Source: an uncultured marine group I thaumarchaeote
Lineage (GTDB): Archaea > Thermoproteota > Nitrososphaeria > Nitrososphaerales > Nitrosopumilaceae
Assembly: GCA_902514275.1 (NCBI GenBank)
Contig: CABXQD010000003.1
Location: 1 to 64,000 of the forward strand
Direction of reading: 5' to 3'
DNA length: 64,000 bases
Part shown: positions 25,566 to 63,053 of the stretch, piece after piece
How positions within the stretch are numbered: position 1 is the first letter of the stretch
How the letters are laid out: the number at the start of each line of letters is the position of its first letter
Notes under the pieces: model-generated
What the model was told of the DNA's origin: nothing
Databases searched by the model: none
Seen by the model: only the letters and a program-made list of their open reading frames with translations
Made by a program: the position numbers and the translations under genes

Positions 25566-26162
25566 GTGAAAAATATGGCTCAAAGAAAAGCAACAATTAA
25601 TCGAAGTACAAAGGAAACTACTATTTCTGTATCTGTAAATCTTGATGGAATAGGTAACACTAGTATTAAAACTGGAATTAATTTCATTGACCACTTGATT
25701 ACATCATTTGGTAAACATGCAATGATGGATCTTAAAGTTAATGCAAAATCTAATGATGGAATTGAACACCACTTGATTGAAGATACTGCAATTACTATTG
25801 GTCAAACAATTGATAAAGCATTAAGTTCAAGAAGTGGTATTACTCGATTTAGTTATGCATCAGTACCGATGGATGAATCTCTAGCTGAAGCATCAATTGA
25901 TTTAGTTAAACGACCATTTTCAAAATTAACTTTATCAATAAAAAGAAGTAAAATCGAAGGTGTCTCAAAAGAAGATTTGGAACACTTTTTCCAATCACTA
26001 CTTCAAAATTTGAATAGCTGTATTCACCTTACTGTAAAGTATGGCGATAATGATCACCACAAAGTTGAATCTGCAATTAAATCACTTGCAGTTGCATTTA
26101 GATCTGCATCATCATATGATAAAAAACAAAAAGGAATTCCAAGTACCAAAGGTTCAATGTAA
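25566..26162 (+). CDS. hisB: Imidazoleglycerol-phosphate dehydratase
   Basis: [43 protein letters not shown]. Confidence 0.97.
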
Positions 26163-26770
26163 TGGTTAATGTAGCAATATTTGACTATGGTGCTGGAAAT
26201 ATTTTCAGCCTCAAAAATTCTCTTGAACAAGCAGGTGCATCAGTGGATGTCATAACTTCTTTTGATAAGTCTAATGTTTATTCTGGATTGTTATTACCTG
26301 GTGTAGGTAATTTTGATCCTGCTATCAAATGTATAAACGAAAAATCAAAAACTAAATTTCATGATTTTGTTAAAGAGGATACTCCTGTTTTAGGCATATG
26401 TCTTGGAATGGAAATGTTTTTTGAAAAAAGTGAGGAAGGAGTTGAAAAGGGATTTAATGTAATTGATGGTGAAATAGTAGTTTTACCATCAACTATGAAA
26501 GTTCCTCATATGGGTTGGAATAATTTAGAAATTAAAAAACCTGGAATTATTTTAGATGGAGTTAATGATGGTTCTTGGGTATATTTTGTTCACTCTTATC
26601 GTGCAAAACCAAAATTTGATGATGTAATTACAGCTGAATCTGATTATGGTGTTAAAGTTCCAGCAGTAGTTGAAAAAAATAATTTTTTTGGAACTCAATT
26701 TCATCCTGAAAAATCCGGTGATGTTGGAAAAATCATGATACAAAATTTTCTAAATGTGTGTAAAAAATGA
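26162..26770 (+). CDS. hisH: Imidazole glycerol phosphate synthase subunit HisH
   Basis: FDYGAGNIFSLKNSLE, LGICLGMEMFFEKSEEG, GTQFHPEKSG. Confidence 0.97.
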   Translation: MVNVAIFDYGAGNIFSLKNSLEQAGASVDVITSFDKSNVYSGLLLPGVGNFDPAIKCINEKSKTKFHDFVKEDTPVLGICLGMEMFFEKSEEGVEKGFNVIDGEIVVLPSTMKVPHMGWNNLEIKKPGIILDGVNDGSWVYFVHSYRAKPKFDDVITAESDYGVKVPAVVEKNNFFGTQFHPEKSGDVGKIMIQNFLNVCKK

Positions 26771-27474
26771 AAGTTATTCCTGCAATTGATTTAATGAACG
26801 GCCAAGTAGTTAGACTCTACAAGGGTGATCCTAACCAAAAAACCATTTACAGCGATGATCCTGTTAGTATTGCCAAAAAATGGGAAAGTGCTGGAGCTGA
26901 TATGATTCATCTTGTAGATTTAGATGCTACTTTGGGATTGGGCTCTAATCTTGAATTAATTAAAAAAATTGTTTCTTCAGTATCTATTCCAATTGAAATT
27001 GCAGGTGGATTGCGTTCTGAATCATTAATTCTTGAAGCATTAGATATTGTTGATAGAGTTGTGATTGGAACTTTTGCATTCAAAGAACCTGAATTATTAC
27101 AAAATTTACTAACAAAATTGGGACCTGAAAAAATTGTTATTTCAGTTGATCATAAAGATGGAATGATTGTAACTCATGGATGGCAAAGCTCTACTGATAT
27201 TTCATTAATTGATTCAATGAAAGAATTTTTACATGTGGGATTCACTGAATTTCTTTTAACTAATGTTAATCGAGATGGAACTTTAGAAGGACCTGATCTT
27301 GAGTTCCTTCAACAAGCCTGTGATTTAGATAAATCCAATGTAATTGCTAGTGGTGGAATTTCAAATATTGATGATATTCCTAAAGTAAAAGAAAAAAATG
27401 CATGGGGTGTAATTTTAGGAAAAGCACTTTATGAGAATAAAATAACTATTGAGGAGACAAAGAAATTATCATGA
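26767..27474 (+). CDS. hisA: Phosphoribosylformimino-5-aminoimidazole carboxamide ribotide isomerase
   Basis: [37 protein letters not shown]. Confidence 0.97.
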
Positions 27475-28274
27475 CTTTAACAAAACGAATTATTCCATGT
27501 TTGGATGTAAAAGATGGGCGAGTAGTTAAAGGATTGAATTTTGAATCTATAAAAGATGCAGGAGATCCAGTAGAATTAGCAGCTAAATATAGTAATGAAG
27601 GTGCTGATGAACTTGTATTTTTAGATATTACAGCTTCAAATGAACAACGAGAAACAATAAAGGAATTAGTACGTAAGGTTGCTTCAGTAATTAATATTCC
27701 ATTTACTGTTGGTGGTGGTGTTAAATCCATTGATGATGCTAGAAATATTTTGCTAAATGGTGCTGATAAAGTTGGAATCAATACATCAGCAATAAAAAAT
27801 CCTCCACTAATTACTGAATTAATGACATTGTTTGGTAGACAATGTGTGGTTGTTGCAATTGATGCTAAAAGAAATTATGAAATTAAAGAAAACGTAAATG
27901 TCTTTTCAGAAAACGATAAAAAATTTTGGTTTGAAGTATTTATTTTTGGAGGAAAACAAGGTACTGGAATTGATGTAATTACATGGGCAAAGAAAGCTGA
28001 AAAATTAGGTGCTGGAGAAATTTTACTAACTAGTATTGATGCTGATGGCACAAAAAATGGTTATGATGTGTTACTTACAAAATCAATTGTTGATAATTCA
28101 TCTATACCTGTAATTGCATCAGGTGGATGTGGAAAACCTGATGATATGGTTGAAATCTTTGAAAAATCAAATGTAGATGCTGCCTTAGCTGCATCTATTT
28201 TTCATTATCAAACTCATGGAGTAAAGGGTGTCAAATCTTTTCTTAAAGAGAGAAACATCTCTGTAAGATTATAA
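27471..28274 (+). CDS. hisF: Imidazole glycerol phosphate synthase subunit HisF
   Basis: [46 protein letters not shown]. Confidence 0.98.
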
Positions 28275-28297
28275 TATCTAGATTATTTTTTAAAATT

Positions 28298-28624
28298 ATG
28301 AATAAATCTATTGATGAAATTGATTTTGAAAAAAGTGGTGGTCTTGTACCTGTAATTGTTCAAGATGCAAATACAAAAGATGTTTTGACATTAGCTTATT
28401 CAAATAAGGAATCTTTAGAATTGGCAAAAAAAACTGGTAATTCTTGGTTTTGGAGTCGTTCAAGAAATAAGCTTTGGATGAAAGGTGAAGAATCAGGTAA
28501 CACACAAAAAATTAAAGAAATTTTAGTTGATTGTGATTTTGATGCAATTATCTATCTTGTTGAACCATCAGGCCCTGCATGTCACACTGGTGAAAAATTA
28601 TGCTTTCATCATGATTTAAAATAA
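28298..28624 (+). CDS. hisI: Phosphoribosyl-AMP cyclohydrolase
   Basis: GLVPVIVQDANTKDVLTLAYSNKESL, SRSRNKLWMKGEESGNTQ, GPACHTGEKLCFH; no HisE domain. Confidence 0.96.
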   Translation: MNKSIDEIDFEKSGGLVPVIVQDANTKDVLTLAYSNKESLELAKKTGNSWFWSRSRNKLWMKGEESGNTQKIKEILVDCDFDAIIYLVEPSGPACHTGEKLCFHHDLK

Positions 28625-29307: not shown

Positions 29308-30528
29308 TTGATCTTGGCTAGAACTTCACTGCAATGTAGGGAATGTAAAAAAGAGTACGAAACTGCTTTCAAGTATGTTTGTGATGACTGTTTTGGCCCC
29401 CTAGACGTAAAATATGACTTTCCAACTTTAACTAAAGATACCTTTTCAAATCGTGAACAGACCTATTGGAGATATTTTGAATTACTTCCAATAGAAAATA
29501 AATCAAATATTGTTAGTATTGGTGCAGGAATGACTCCTCTTACCAAAGCTGAAAATCTTGGAAAAAAATTAGGACTAAATAATTTATACATAAAAAATGA
29601 TTCTGTAAATCCAACTTTTTCATTTAAAGATAGACCAGCTGGTGTTGCAATCTCAAAAGCAAAAGAACTTGGATTAACTGCAGTTGGTTGTGCATCAACT
29701 GGTAATTTAGCATCTGCAACTGCAGCACATGCAGCAGCTGCAGGATTACCATGTCATGTATTTGCACCAAGTAATATTGAAATGGCAAAAATTGCACAAG
29801 CGTTATCGTATGGAGCAAATTACATTGCAGTTGATGGAACTTATGATGATGCAAATAGAATTGCAGCTCAAATTGGTGATAGCAAAGGAATCGGTGTTGT
29901 CAACATTAACATGCGTTCACATTATGTAGAAGGCTCTAAAACATTTTCATTTGAAGTTGCAGAACAACTTGATTGGCAAGTACCTGATCAACTAATAGTT
30001 CCTGTAGGTAGTGGTGCAATGCTTAATGCAATTTGTAAAGGATTTGAAGAATTACAAACTGTTTCATTACTTGATGATGTGTCCAATATGCATATGATTG
30101 CAGCACAACCACATGGATGTGCACCAATTGTTGATGCATTTAAGAAAAATACAAAGGAAGTCATTCCAGTTGAAAATCCTGATACCGTAGCTAAAAGTTT
30201 AGCAATTGGTGATCCTGGAGATGGAAGATATGTTCTCAAAAGATTACAACAATACAATGGATTTGCAGAAGAATGTAATGACCAAGAAATTTTAGATGCA
30301 ATACTTCTTTTGGCTCAAACTGAAGGAATTTTTACAGAACCAGCTGGCGGTGTATCAATTTCTATATTACAAAAAATGGTTGAACAAGGAAAAATTGATA
30401 AAAATGACAAAGTAGTATGTTATGTTACTGGTAATGGTCTGAAAGCTACTGAATCAATAATGCAAGTTCTATCAAAGCCAACTGTTTACAAGCCAAACAT
30501 TAATGAAATCTCAGCGGTGGTTCAATAG
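29308..30528 (+). CDS. thrC: Threonine synthase
   Basis: N-terminal Zn-knuckle CRECKKEYETAFKYVCDDC, PLP lysine SFKDRPAG, STGNLASATAAHA. Start codon TTG; exact start uncertain. Confidence 0.92.
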   Translation: MILARTSLQCRECKKEYETAFKYVCDDCFGPLDVKYDFPTLTKDTFSNREQTYWRYFELLPIENKSNIVSIGAGMTPLTKAENLGKKLGLNNLYIKNDSVNPTFSFKDRPAGVAISKAKELGLTAVGCASTGNLASATAAHAAAAGLPCHVFAPSNIEMAKIAQALSYGANYIAVDGTYDDANRIAAQIGDSKGIGVVNINMRSHYVEGSKTFSFEVAEQLDWQVPDQLIVPVGSGAMLNAICKGFEELQTVSLLDDVSNMHMIAAQPHGCAPIVDAFKKNTKEVIPVENPDTVAKSLAIGDPGDGRYVLKRLQQYNGFAEECNDQEILDAILLLAQTEGIFTEPAGGVSISILQKMVEQGKIDKNDKVVCYVTGNGLKATESIMQVLSKPTVYKPNINEISAVVQ

Positions 30529-30530
30529 AT

Positions 30531-31853
30531 ATGACAAATATTACATTTACAATTCCCTCAGTCTTAAATGCAGGTGGGGGAGAGAAGAAAACCGAAATCT
30601 CAGCAGACTCACTTCAAGATGCATTTGTTAAAATATCTGAAATTCAAGGTGATGATTTTAAAAGACGTGTTTTGGAGGCTGATAATACTCCTCGCTCTTT
30701 GATTAATATCTATATTAACGGAAAAAATGCTAAATTTTCTAGTGGTATGGAAACTCCACTAAATGATGGTGATGAAATCTATATTTTGCCTGCAGTTGCT
30801 GGAGGCTCTGAGGACTTGTCTTCAAAAGAACTTGATAGATATTCTCGACAAGTTATGCTTGAAGAAATCGGTTACAACGGACAATTAAAATTAAAAAATT
30901 CTAAAGTTTGTGTTATCGGAACTGGTGGATTGGGTCATCCAATTATTACAAGATTAACTGCAATGGGTATTGGTACATTAAGAATTGTTGATAGGGATGT
31001 AATTGAATTATCTAATTTACATAGACAAACATTGTTTGATGAATCTGATGTTGGACAAGTAAAAGTCGAAGCTGCAGCAAAAAAATTGAAAAAATTAAAT
31101 TCTGATTGTAACATTGAAGCACTAACTGTTTCAGTTAATGATTATACTGCACTTGAAGTTGTAGAAGGATGTGATGTTGTAATTGATGCACTTGATTCTG
31201 TTAATGCAAGATATGCATTAAACAAGGCATGTGTTAAATTTGGAATTCCATTTGTTACAGGAGCTGCAGTTGGAACTTCAGGACAAGCATTTACAATTTT
31301 ACCAAAAAAATCTGCATGTTATTATTGCATGTTTCCTGCACTTGATGAAGATACAATGCCAACGTGCAGTATTGAAGGAGTACATCCATCAATACTTTCT
31401 ATAATGGGTGGAATTGAAGTTGCAGAAGCTGTAAAAGTAATTACTGGAAAAAAACCAAATCTTGCAAATAGAATTTTACATGTTGATTTAGAGAATTTAG
31501 ATTTTAACAGTACACGAACATTCAGAGCTGATGAGTGTCCAATTTGTGGAACTGGAAAATTAGAAGTTGTAGAAAAACAAGAATTAATTTTAGAAGAACT
31601 ATGTGGAAGAAATAGAGGTAAGAGAACTTACTCCATTACTCCAACTGAAACTTTTGATTTGGATTCAGCAAGTGTTACAGCAATTGCAAAAGAGAAAGGA
31701 TTTCTAGTTGAGAACTTGGGTGACTTGGGATTGTCTATGAGAACAAATGAACTTTCTGTTAATTTCATGAAAAGAGGATCTGCTGTAGTTGTTGGATCAA
31801 AAGATGAATCTGATGCAATTTCACTTTACAAGACCTTATTATCTAAAATTTAG
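30531..31853 (+). CDS. Fusion: N-terminal MoaD/ubiquitin-like domain ending PAVAGG + ThiF/MoeB E1-like adenylyltransferase + unassigned C-terminal extension
   Basis: MoaD-like ...LNDGDEIYILPAVAGG; E1 part GTGGLGHPIITRLTAMGIGTLRIVDRDVIELSNLHRQ, Zn pairs CYYC/CPIC, PTCSIEGV. Confidence 0.9.
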   Translation: MTNITFTIPSVLNAGGGEKKTEISADSLQDAFVKISEIQGDDFKRRVLEADNTPRSLINIYINGKNAKFSSGMETPLNDGDEIYILPAVAGGSEDLSSKELDRYSRQVMLEEIGYNGQLKLKNSKVCVIGTGGLGHPIITRLTAMGIGTLRIVDRDVIELSNLHRQTLFDESDVGQVKVEAAAKKLKKLNSDCNIEALTVSVNDYTALEVVEGCDVVIDALDSVNARYALNKACVKFGIPFVTGAAVGTSGQAFTILPKKSACYYCMFPALDEDTMPTCSIEGVHPSILSIMGGIEVAEAVKVITGKKPNLANRILHVDLENLDFNSTRTFRADECPICGTGKLEVVEKQELILEELCGRNRGKRTYSITPTETFDLDSASVTAIAKEKGFLVENLGDLGLSMRTNELSVNFMKRGSAVVVGSKDESDAISLYKTLLSKI

Positions 31854-61475: not shown

Positions 61476-63053
61476 TTAAAACTGTGAAGCTTGTTTGACT
61501 AGTTCTGAGAGTTGACTGTTTCTTGCTTCAGGAAGCTCTGTTATTCCTCCAATCAAACTATCTGTTACAATTCCTTTTTCTGCTAATACGTTGGCAGCCA
61601 TTAATGATGTTCTTCCAGCCATACAGACCATTAGAGATTTCCCTTTTGATTCTTGAATTGAATTGTTTATTTCATCTGGAATGCCTTGCCCTGATAATAG
61701 TTGCTGCGCTGTTCTTGCATTTGGTACAACAATTTTGCTTTTATCAATGCCTAATGATTTTGCTAATAATTCTAACCCTCCTTCTTGTGGTGTATATTGT
61801 GTGTGTACCCAAATAACTTTATCATAATTATCTGAATTTGAGGCTACTTCTTCTTGTGACACTTGTCCTGGTGGTTGAATTTTCCCAATTTTTTCTAAAT
61901 TCTTCCTATATTTTTCAATTCCATCACAAATCATTACTACAAATTTACTTCCTTTATTTGCACTAGCTAATTGTAAAGTTGCATAAAGTTCTAGGGCACT
62001 ACTTTCTCCAATATCGTGTCCTTTTTCTACAAAAAATTTTAAAAGTGGTTTAGCTTTTTCAAAATCTACTTCATATTCTCCAGCATATTTGTCTGGTTGA
62101 TAATATTTCAAACCATCTGCATTATTGTGAGTTCTAATTCCTGCAACATCTTGTCCTCCTGGTGGAAATATCACATGAACTCCCTTCTTGTCATATTTTT
62201 CAGAGATGTATCTACTTAATCCACCTGAAGTACCACCTGTACCAAATGTACATAGAATGTTAAAGTCTTGAAGTGATTTCCCCTCTTCGTGTAATTGTTG
62301 ATCTATTTCAGCTCCAGTTATGGTTCTATGTGCATTAACGTTCAAATCATTATCATATTGTTCTGGACAAAAACAATTGTAAATTTTTGAAAGTAATTTT
62401 GCTAAATTAATAATATCTTGTTTGGCTAACAATGATTCAATTTCAGTAATTGAATTATCATAAATACTTGGATCAAAACCCAATTGAGATAATTGTGAAC
62501 GTACATTAGCAGCTGTTGCTTTTGCAACTAATTCATCTTTTTTTCCTTCCATTCCTGGTGCAGGACAAATATCCATTTCTAAATCCATTATCTTGATATT
62601 CATATTTCTTAATTCATGAAATACACCTTCTTGTAATTTTCTTGAAACAATTGTAACCACTTGTAATCCTAGTTTTGATAACATGCCTAATGCAATTCCA
62701 AAATTACCTGATGTTGCTTCAATTACTGTTTGACCACTTTTTATTTTCCCTGTCATGATTGCATCATGAATGATATTTGCAGCTGGTCTAACTTTGATTG
62801 AACCTGTAAGTAATGTAGAATCTAATTTACCATACACTTGTAATTCTGAATTTGAAAGATCTAATTTGTAAATTTCTTTAGCACATTCTTTGAAATCTGA
62901 TGTAATGTCTACTAGCGGTGTAGCATTGACAATTTTTCCACCTTCTTGATTATTTTCCAAATGTGGTACTTTATTCCAAATTTCTTCTTCAAATCGTTTA
63001 AGAAGAACTTTATCAATAGTATTGTCCTGATTTTGTTCCAAATTTATCTCCAC
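61476..63053 (-). CDS. PLP-dependent cysteine synthase-like protein with C-terminal rhodanese-like domain
   Basis: TGSIKVRPAANI, EATSGNFGIALGM, TFGTGGTSGGLSRY; C-terminal LMVCMAGRTSLMAANVLAEKG. Confidence 0.88.
   Translation of the reverse strand: MEINLEQNQDNTIDKVLLKRFEEEIWNKVPHLENNQEGGKIVNATPLVDITSDFKECAKEIYKLDLSNSELQVYGKLDSTLLTGSIKVRPAANIIHDAIMTGKIKSGQTVIEATSGNFGIALGMLSKLGLQVVTIVSRKLQEGVFHELRNMNIKIMDLEMDICPAPGMEGKKDELVAKATAANVRSQLSQLGFDPSIYDNSITEIESLLAKQDIINLAKLLSKIYNCFCPEQYDNDLNVNAHRTITGAEIDQQLHEEGKSLQDFNILCTFGTGGTSGGLSRYISEKYDKKGVHVIFPPGGQDVAGIRTHNNADGLKYYQPDKYAGEYEVDFEKAKPLLKFFVEKGHDIGESSALELYATLQLASANKGSKFVVMICDGIEKYRKNLEKIGKIQPPGQVSQEEVASNSDNYDKVIWVHTQYTPQEGGLELLAKSLGIDKSKIVVPNARTAQQLLSGQGIPDEINNSIQESKGKSLMVCMAGRTSLMAANVLAEKGIVTDSLIGGITELPEARNSQLSELVKQASQF

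Follow-up and report, generated by a model that had tools for sequence, protein, structure and literature searches.

The analysed window comprises 64,000 nucleotides (positions 1 to 64,000 of contig CABXQD010000003.1) from an uncultured marine group I thaumarchaeote. The locus under study consists of two genes on the forward strand (Table 1), of which the first is annotated as threonine synthase (thrC) and the second encodes a fusion of a ubiquitin-like domain (UBL), an E1 and a C-terminal domain. The ORFs, which are separated by 2 nt, confirmed the initial annotation in that thrC ends at 30528, the next gene starts at 30531 and the UBL-E1 frame continues through an internal PAVAGG. The start codon listed for thrC is TTG, and the true start may lie a couple of codons downstream (..LARTSLQC). 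The fusion ORF runs from an ATG to a stop codon at 31851-31853 and is unbroken over 440 aa. Just upstream of the locus, an ordinary set of hisB, hisH, hisA, hisF and hisI-like genes, apparently for histidine biosynthesis, is located at 25566-28624 (+).

Table 1. Features of the thrC (metM)-UBL-E1 locus; coordinates refer to the window.
Feature	Position	Strand	Basis
MetM-type fold-II PLP enzyme (annotated threonine synthase, thrC)	29308..30528	+	ORF; 406 aa, N-terminal zinc ribbon
UBL-E1-CTD fusion protein	30531..31853	+	ORF, 440 aa; Pfam ThiS and ThiF; fused next to thrC in 48 loci
Ubiquitin-like sulfur carrier domain (MetO/CysO-like), aa 1-92, ends PAVAGG	30531..30806	+	phmmer to CysO 3dwg
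GG codons GGAGGC (Gly91-Gly92); predicted cleavage between Gly92 and Ser93	30801..30806	+	Alignment of fusions
Linker aa 93-103, sequence and length differ among orthologues	30807..30839	+	Junction comparison
E1 (ThiF/MoeB) adenylation core, zinc cysteines, sulfur-transfer cysteine C279	30840..31541	+	PF00899; Foldseek
C-terminal domain, TBP-like in the literature, motif ELCGRxxGKRT	31563..31850	+	ORF, alignment; PMC2948915

The UBL domain ends at aa 92, which is the exact stop position in 21 unfused relatives (stop codon directly after GG in 21/21 loci). The ThiS/UBL profile match covers aa 50-92, and among solved UBLs M. tuberculosis CysO (3dwg, phmmer E 4e-11) has the closest sequence. The E1 core (aa 104-337) was identified as ThiF/PF00899 by profile searches with E-values of 2.4e-75 to 3e-74. 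All E1 marks claimed initially are present, namely the ATP loop GTGGLG, the zinc cysteines (C263, C266, C336 and C339) and PTCSIEGV, which contains C279; this residue aligns with the ThiF cysteine in a comparison to solved structures. In 35 aligned fusions, the four zinc cysteines, C279 and conserved R/K/D residues are invariant and P87-A88-V89-A90-G91-G92 is unchanged (35/35), while no invariant column lies between G92 and S105. In an AlphaFold model of the fusion (pLDDT 82) all three domains can be seen, and Foldseek searches with this model led to ThiF/MoeB structures at a TM(target) of about 0.9; the GG linker is among the lowest-confidence parts, and the reach of the tail to the E1 site is not readable there.

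The C-terminal stretch of about 100 aa, initially described as of unknown type, belongs to an architecture that has been named Ubl-E1-TBP for Thaumarchaeota in a passage of Makarova and Koonin (2010; PMC2948915). The fusion studied here is the same one, a single chain that combines UBL, E1 core and C-terminal domain; according to a passage of a 2024 study (PMC11237513), 61 of 98 Thaumarchaeota have it as a MoaD-MoeB fusion. The passages on the fusion in these two sources contain neither a thrC link nor MetM orthology nor a role in methionine synthesis. The UBL-E1 fusion itself is already known; the thrC/MetM partner and the proposed role are new here. A chance event or sequencing slip was ruled out for the fusion, since the fused frame recurs beside thrC in 48 related loci. 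An internal translation start past the GG codons (GGAGG as Shine-Dalgarno sequence, TTG 9 nt downstream) was considered and rejected, as it is not conserved; the 96%-identical locus L003 has GGCGG at the Shine-Dalgarno-like site and no start codon there.

The enzyme annotated as threonine synthase was classified in a tree calculated from 79 proteins. All 40 UBL-linked enzymes from archaea fall into one clade with 11 enzymes from actinobacteria (100/100 support). This UBL-linked clade (51 rows) stands outside canonical ThrC; S. albulus MetM is represented in it by Streptomyces orthologues. In total, 17 positions separate the archaeal and actinobacterial MetM clade from canonical ThrC. The thaumarchaeal enzyme carries the MetM-type motifs STGNLA and RxxYxEGSKT, and canonical ThrC carries STGNTSAS and NPxRxEGQKT; in Thermus threonine synthase, the phosphate of the substrate is bound by these loops.

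The actinobacterial genes were found first in Nonomuraea (45% identical; L122) and then in 80 Streptomyces, Nonomuraea and related loci. A UBL gene is located just downstream of metM in all 80 fetched loci and a SAM riboswitch just upstream in 20 of 20 tested loci as well as in Nonomuraea L122, whereas no E1 gene was found by the carrier in the 80 loci. The UBL and riboswitch context matches the description of metM-metO for S. albulus, in which MetM converts O-phosphohomoserine to homocysteine, a SAM riboswitch lies upstream of metM and metO is a gene of the sulfur-carrier family (Hasebe, 2024, as cited in PMC12172450). The riboswitch is absent in Microcystis (PMC12172450) and represents a regulatory trait that is not required of MetM. 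Among the actinobacterial MetO-type UBLs (L148-L227), 18 of 80 do not end exactly in GG, and two of these that were inspected carry one to two extra residues (L153, GGQ; L158, GGAR), which suggests processing there too.

A plain or bifunctional threonine synthase, with the UBL gene merely on the same transcript, would agree with the database name of the window enzyme, which exceeds the cut-offs of the NCBIfam threonine-synthase profiles NF006050 (316 vs. 303 bits) and TIGR00260 (291 vs. 167 bits). Furthermore, a cyanobacterial homologue is a threonine synthase in vitro and in cells not fully MetM-like (PMC12172450), so a mixed enzyme activity is possible. TIGR00260, however, cannot separate MetM from ThrC, because actinobacterial MetM also scores over its cut-off. 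In addition, ammonia-oxidising archaea (AOA) possess another enzyme, about 445 aa long, that has the canonical ThrC motifs and passes TIGR00260, and therefore threonine synthesis has its own gene; canonical ThrC was also found in four genomes without the locus (G076, G141, G147 and G104). Together with the substrate-site motifs altered in common with actinobacterial MetM, this makes a threonine synthase distinctly unlikely, and the initial designation of the enzyme as such reflects a database name only.

In the distribution search, 138 of 151 genomes of the order gave a match. In 72 of the fetched loci the UBL immediately follows thrC; it is fused to E1 in 48 of them, tailed after GG in three and separate in 21. 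The linkage noted initially is thus conserved at the level of thrC and UBL, spanning many families of the order. The two genes stay paired where E1 is located elsewhere (L073, L088), so the bond between thrC and UBL is tighter than that between UBL and E1. The E1 tree is consistent with a single fusion event at the base of the Nitrosopumilaceae-like (f1) and Nitrososphaeraceae-like (f8) genomes and families f2 and f3 (100/99). All f1 and f8 loci examined keep the fusion, and a secondary fission was detected in three genomes of one genus (g10) of f2 (L052, L054 and L055), in which 8-15 residues are left past GG. In genomes without the locus, metM and UBL-E1 are missing together. MetH, canonical ThrC and JAMM are retained in the four genomes named above, which are AOA assemblies with completeness ratings of 93-99%; these genomes are possibly methionine auxotrophs or affected by assembly gaps. 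As natural knock-outs they were given little weight, because the losses could be such gaps.

It is conceivable that UBL-E1 is a general carrier system (tRNA 2-thiolation, molybdopterin, protein modification) and that its place behind a thrC-like gene is incidental or due to co-regulation. No ThiF-family hit other than the fusion was obtained in the incomplete genome of the window, and the other ThiS hits of AOA are mainly Ubl-Cgi121, so that other UBL-dependent reactions may share the carrier of the fusion. Moreover, its E1 scores lie below the ThiF, MoeB and UbaA cut-offs (216 vs. 450 bits for NF047750, the E1 equivalog of SAMP/UbaA), and the profiles therefore do not settle its specificity. 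A general carrier is nevertheless unlikely in view of the thrC-UBL adjacency across families, its survival apart from E1, its presence in actinobacteria and the joint loss of metM and UBL-E1. Side roles of the carrier, e.g., in tRNA thiolation, are possible.

With regard to homocysteine synthesis, profile searches of the f1, f8, f2, f3 and f14 genomes revealed neither a true PF01053 enzyme (MetB/MetC/MetY) nor HcyBio (PF01837). The best PF01053 score in f1 and f8 genomes is about 43 bits, compared with 413-504 bits for true members. Elsewhere in the order both protein families are clearly detected, and HcyBio accompanies the thrC-UBL pair in some f13, f12 and f7 genomes. Every tested genome of f1 and f8 has a MetH-type PF02574 protein. 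Cultured AOA grow autotrophically, and homocysteine must therefore be made somehow, for which the MetM-type enzyme is the obvious candidate. In a distant relative (G013, family f13), metM-UBL-E1 closes a complete sulfate-assimilation run of genes on the same strand (L064, 6405-14035 (-); cysM-tauE-PAPS reductase-ATP sulfurylase-sulfite reductase-tusA-metM-UBL-E1). The same logic is found in the operons listed in row 4e of PMC1779556, which comprise ThiS/MoaD, JAB, E1, SirA, PAPS reductase, ATP sulfurylase, sulfite reductase and O-acetylhomoserine sulfhydrylase; MetM replaces the last of these in L064.

The carrier could instead feed a cysteine synthase, as in a pathway of the CysO-CysM type. 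This reading draws on CysO as the nearest solved UBL, on CysM-like genes in most relatives, on G004, where a CysM-like gene is followed by JAMM and then by a UBL-E1 fusion, and on the cysM gene within the L064 operon. A strict co-loss of UBL-E1 with CysM was not seen, since UBL-E1 occurs without CysM (G138, G096) and CysM without UBL-E1 (G141, G147, G104), which counts against a cysteine pathway. As the AOA carrier also adjoins metM and not cysM, such a pathway is highly improbable. The mycobacterial CysO-CysM-Mec system resembles the locus in its related UBL, its fold-II PLP enzyme and its JAMM protease (here in related genomes), but its partner is CysM instead of MetM, and the thaumarchaeal carrier is neither linked to nor co-inherited with CysM. 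At 61908-62861 (-), the window contains an ORF of about 529 aa for a long cysteine-synthase-like PLP protein with a weak TIGR01136 match. Its relatives have 520-530 aa in G114, G056 and G076, the last of which keeps it and is without CysM; judged by sequence, this protein is possibly an alternative cysteine synthase.

The conservation of GG in orthologues, on which the initial reading depended, proved complete: GG is unchanged in all 48 fused proteins although it is internal, and the downstream sequence varies, including a Ser/Asn-rich insert past GG in L051. Carriers with residues past GG would work only if something trims them. All 37 tested genomes with a fused or tailed UBL, a set that excludes the 63%-complete genome of the window (G000), gave a strong Prok-JAB/JAMM hit (E <= 5e-13), compared with 5 of 16 split genomes with a clean GG stop; this association is confounded by kinship. 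The motif HxHPxxxxxPSxxD is present in the 24 JAMM proteins read out. A JAMM gene elsewhere in the genome, as initially suggested, could thus be found in relatives, whereas the window's own genome yielded none at its completeness. JAMM is also kept in genomes that lost UBL-E1 and is consequently not dedicated to this fusion. Those genomes hold a Ubl-Cgi121 fusion, which may be the reason for its persistence.

Ubl-Cgi121 is the second internal-GG fusion in AOA, with IIPVIHGG followed by SS (L248:863-1636, L249:134-907); this fusion has been known since 2010, and the assignment of its partner to Cgi121 (KEOPS) follows PMC2948915. In Nitrosopumilaceae-like genomes, both ThiS-family UBLs occupy the N-terminus of a fusion protein, and in each a Ser comes directly after GG. 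In a separate lineage of UBL-E1 fusions (f9, f5; L252:1800-3762, L078:4534-7277), a JAMM gene lies directly upstream, at a distance of about 10 nt in G033, and by our own reading the G033 chain also includes a C-terminal rhodanese-like domain. In Wolinella, the HcyS carrier is trimmed by a JAMM protease. A precedent for an internal GG followed by Ser in a UBL is M. tuberculosis MoaX, which is cut between Gly82 and Ser83, a cleavage needed for its activity (PMC4326299). MoaX differs in its fusion partner MoaE, in place of which E1 is found here, and in its product molybdopterin; no molybdopterin genes occur among the neighbours scanned in other lineages.

If the fusion were left uncleaved, the tethered UBL could regulate or position E1, and E1 would act on another carrier. 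Such a role would fit the retention of the fusion in all f1 and f8 loci examined, and a passage of Iyer et al. (2006; PMC1779556) proposes a separate role of the Ub-like domain in some ThiF fusions with standalone ThiS. In most Nitrosopumilaceae-like genomes, however, the ThiS hits included no standalone UBL. The invariant GG next to a linker without constraint, the GG and tail retained in the three secondarily split genomes and the MoaX precedent argue in the same direction, and a regulatory tether appears improbable. Very unlikely is a fusion that is never cut and serves homocysteine synthesis, either loaded without a free glycine C-terminus or acting as a tethered, self-contained sulfur-delivery arm. 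Cleavage after GG, one of the two options offered initially, is a prediction well supported by comparison.

Among known systems, Streptomyces MetM/MetO is similar in having a ThrC-like PLP enzyme of the same clade (100/100) and an adjacent UBL ending in PAVAGG. The differences are that the AOA carrier is fused to E1, that no SAM riboswitch (RF00162) was found in the window, that the host is an archaeon and that the activity is predicted here. The Wolinella HcyS/HcyD/HcyF-MetY route shares a protein thiocarboxylate as sulfur donor for methionine (Krishnamoorthy and Begley, 2011, as cited in PMC6225789), but it uses MetY and O-acetylhomoserine, in contrast to the MetM/ThrC-like enzyme, the predicted O-phosphohomoserine and the E1-fused carrier of this locus.

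Taken together, the locus probably encodes an archaeal O-phosphohomoserine-dependent homocysteine synthase of the MetM/MetO type, the carrier of which would be synthesised as a fusion with its E1 and released by cleavage behind GG. The initial annotation had suggested a UBL-dependent sulfur route from O-phosphohomoserine to homocysteine or cysteine; this is supported and narrowed to homocysteine because of the MetM/MetO clade, the absence of the other homocysteine synthases searched and the co-occurrence of UBL-E1 with MetM and not with CysM. In the proposed mechanism, translation would yield the ubiquitin-like domain at the N-terminus of its own E1, and a protease, most likely a JAMM/Prok-JAB protein encoded elsewhere, would cut after Gly92 to give a free carrier and a free E1. 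The E1 would then adenylate the carrier, and sulfur from a putative donor would be loaded, probably via C279, as a thiocarboxylate on the C-terminal glycine. MetM would unload this sulfur and exchange it for the phosphate of O-phosphohomoserine, and the resulting homocysteine would be methylated by the MetH-type methyltransferase.

Few cells in the ocean and in soil are as abundant as AOA. If the proposed function is correct, the enzyme listed as threonine synthase would be the missing homocysteine step of their methionine synthesis and would be mis-annotated in Nitrosopumilaceae-like and Nitrososphaeraceae-like genomes, and methionine synthesis via a protein thiocarboxylate would reach the archaea. 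The lineage in which separate genes were fused and later, within a single genus, parted again, a tail remaining after GG, would furthermore provide a clean evolutionary test of the processing of ubiquitin-like pro-proteins.
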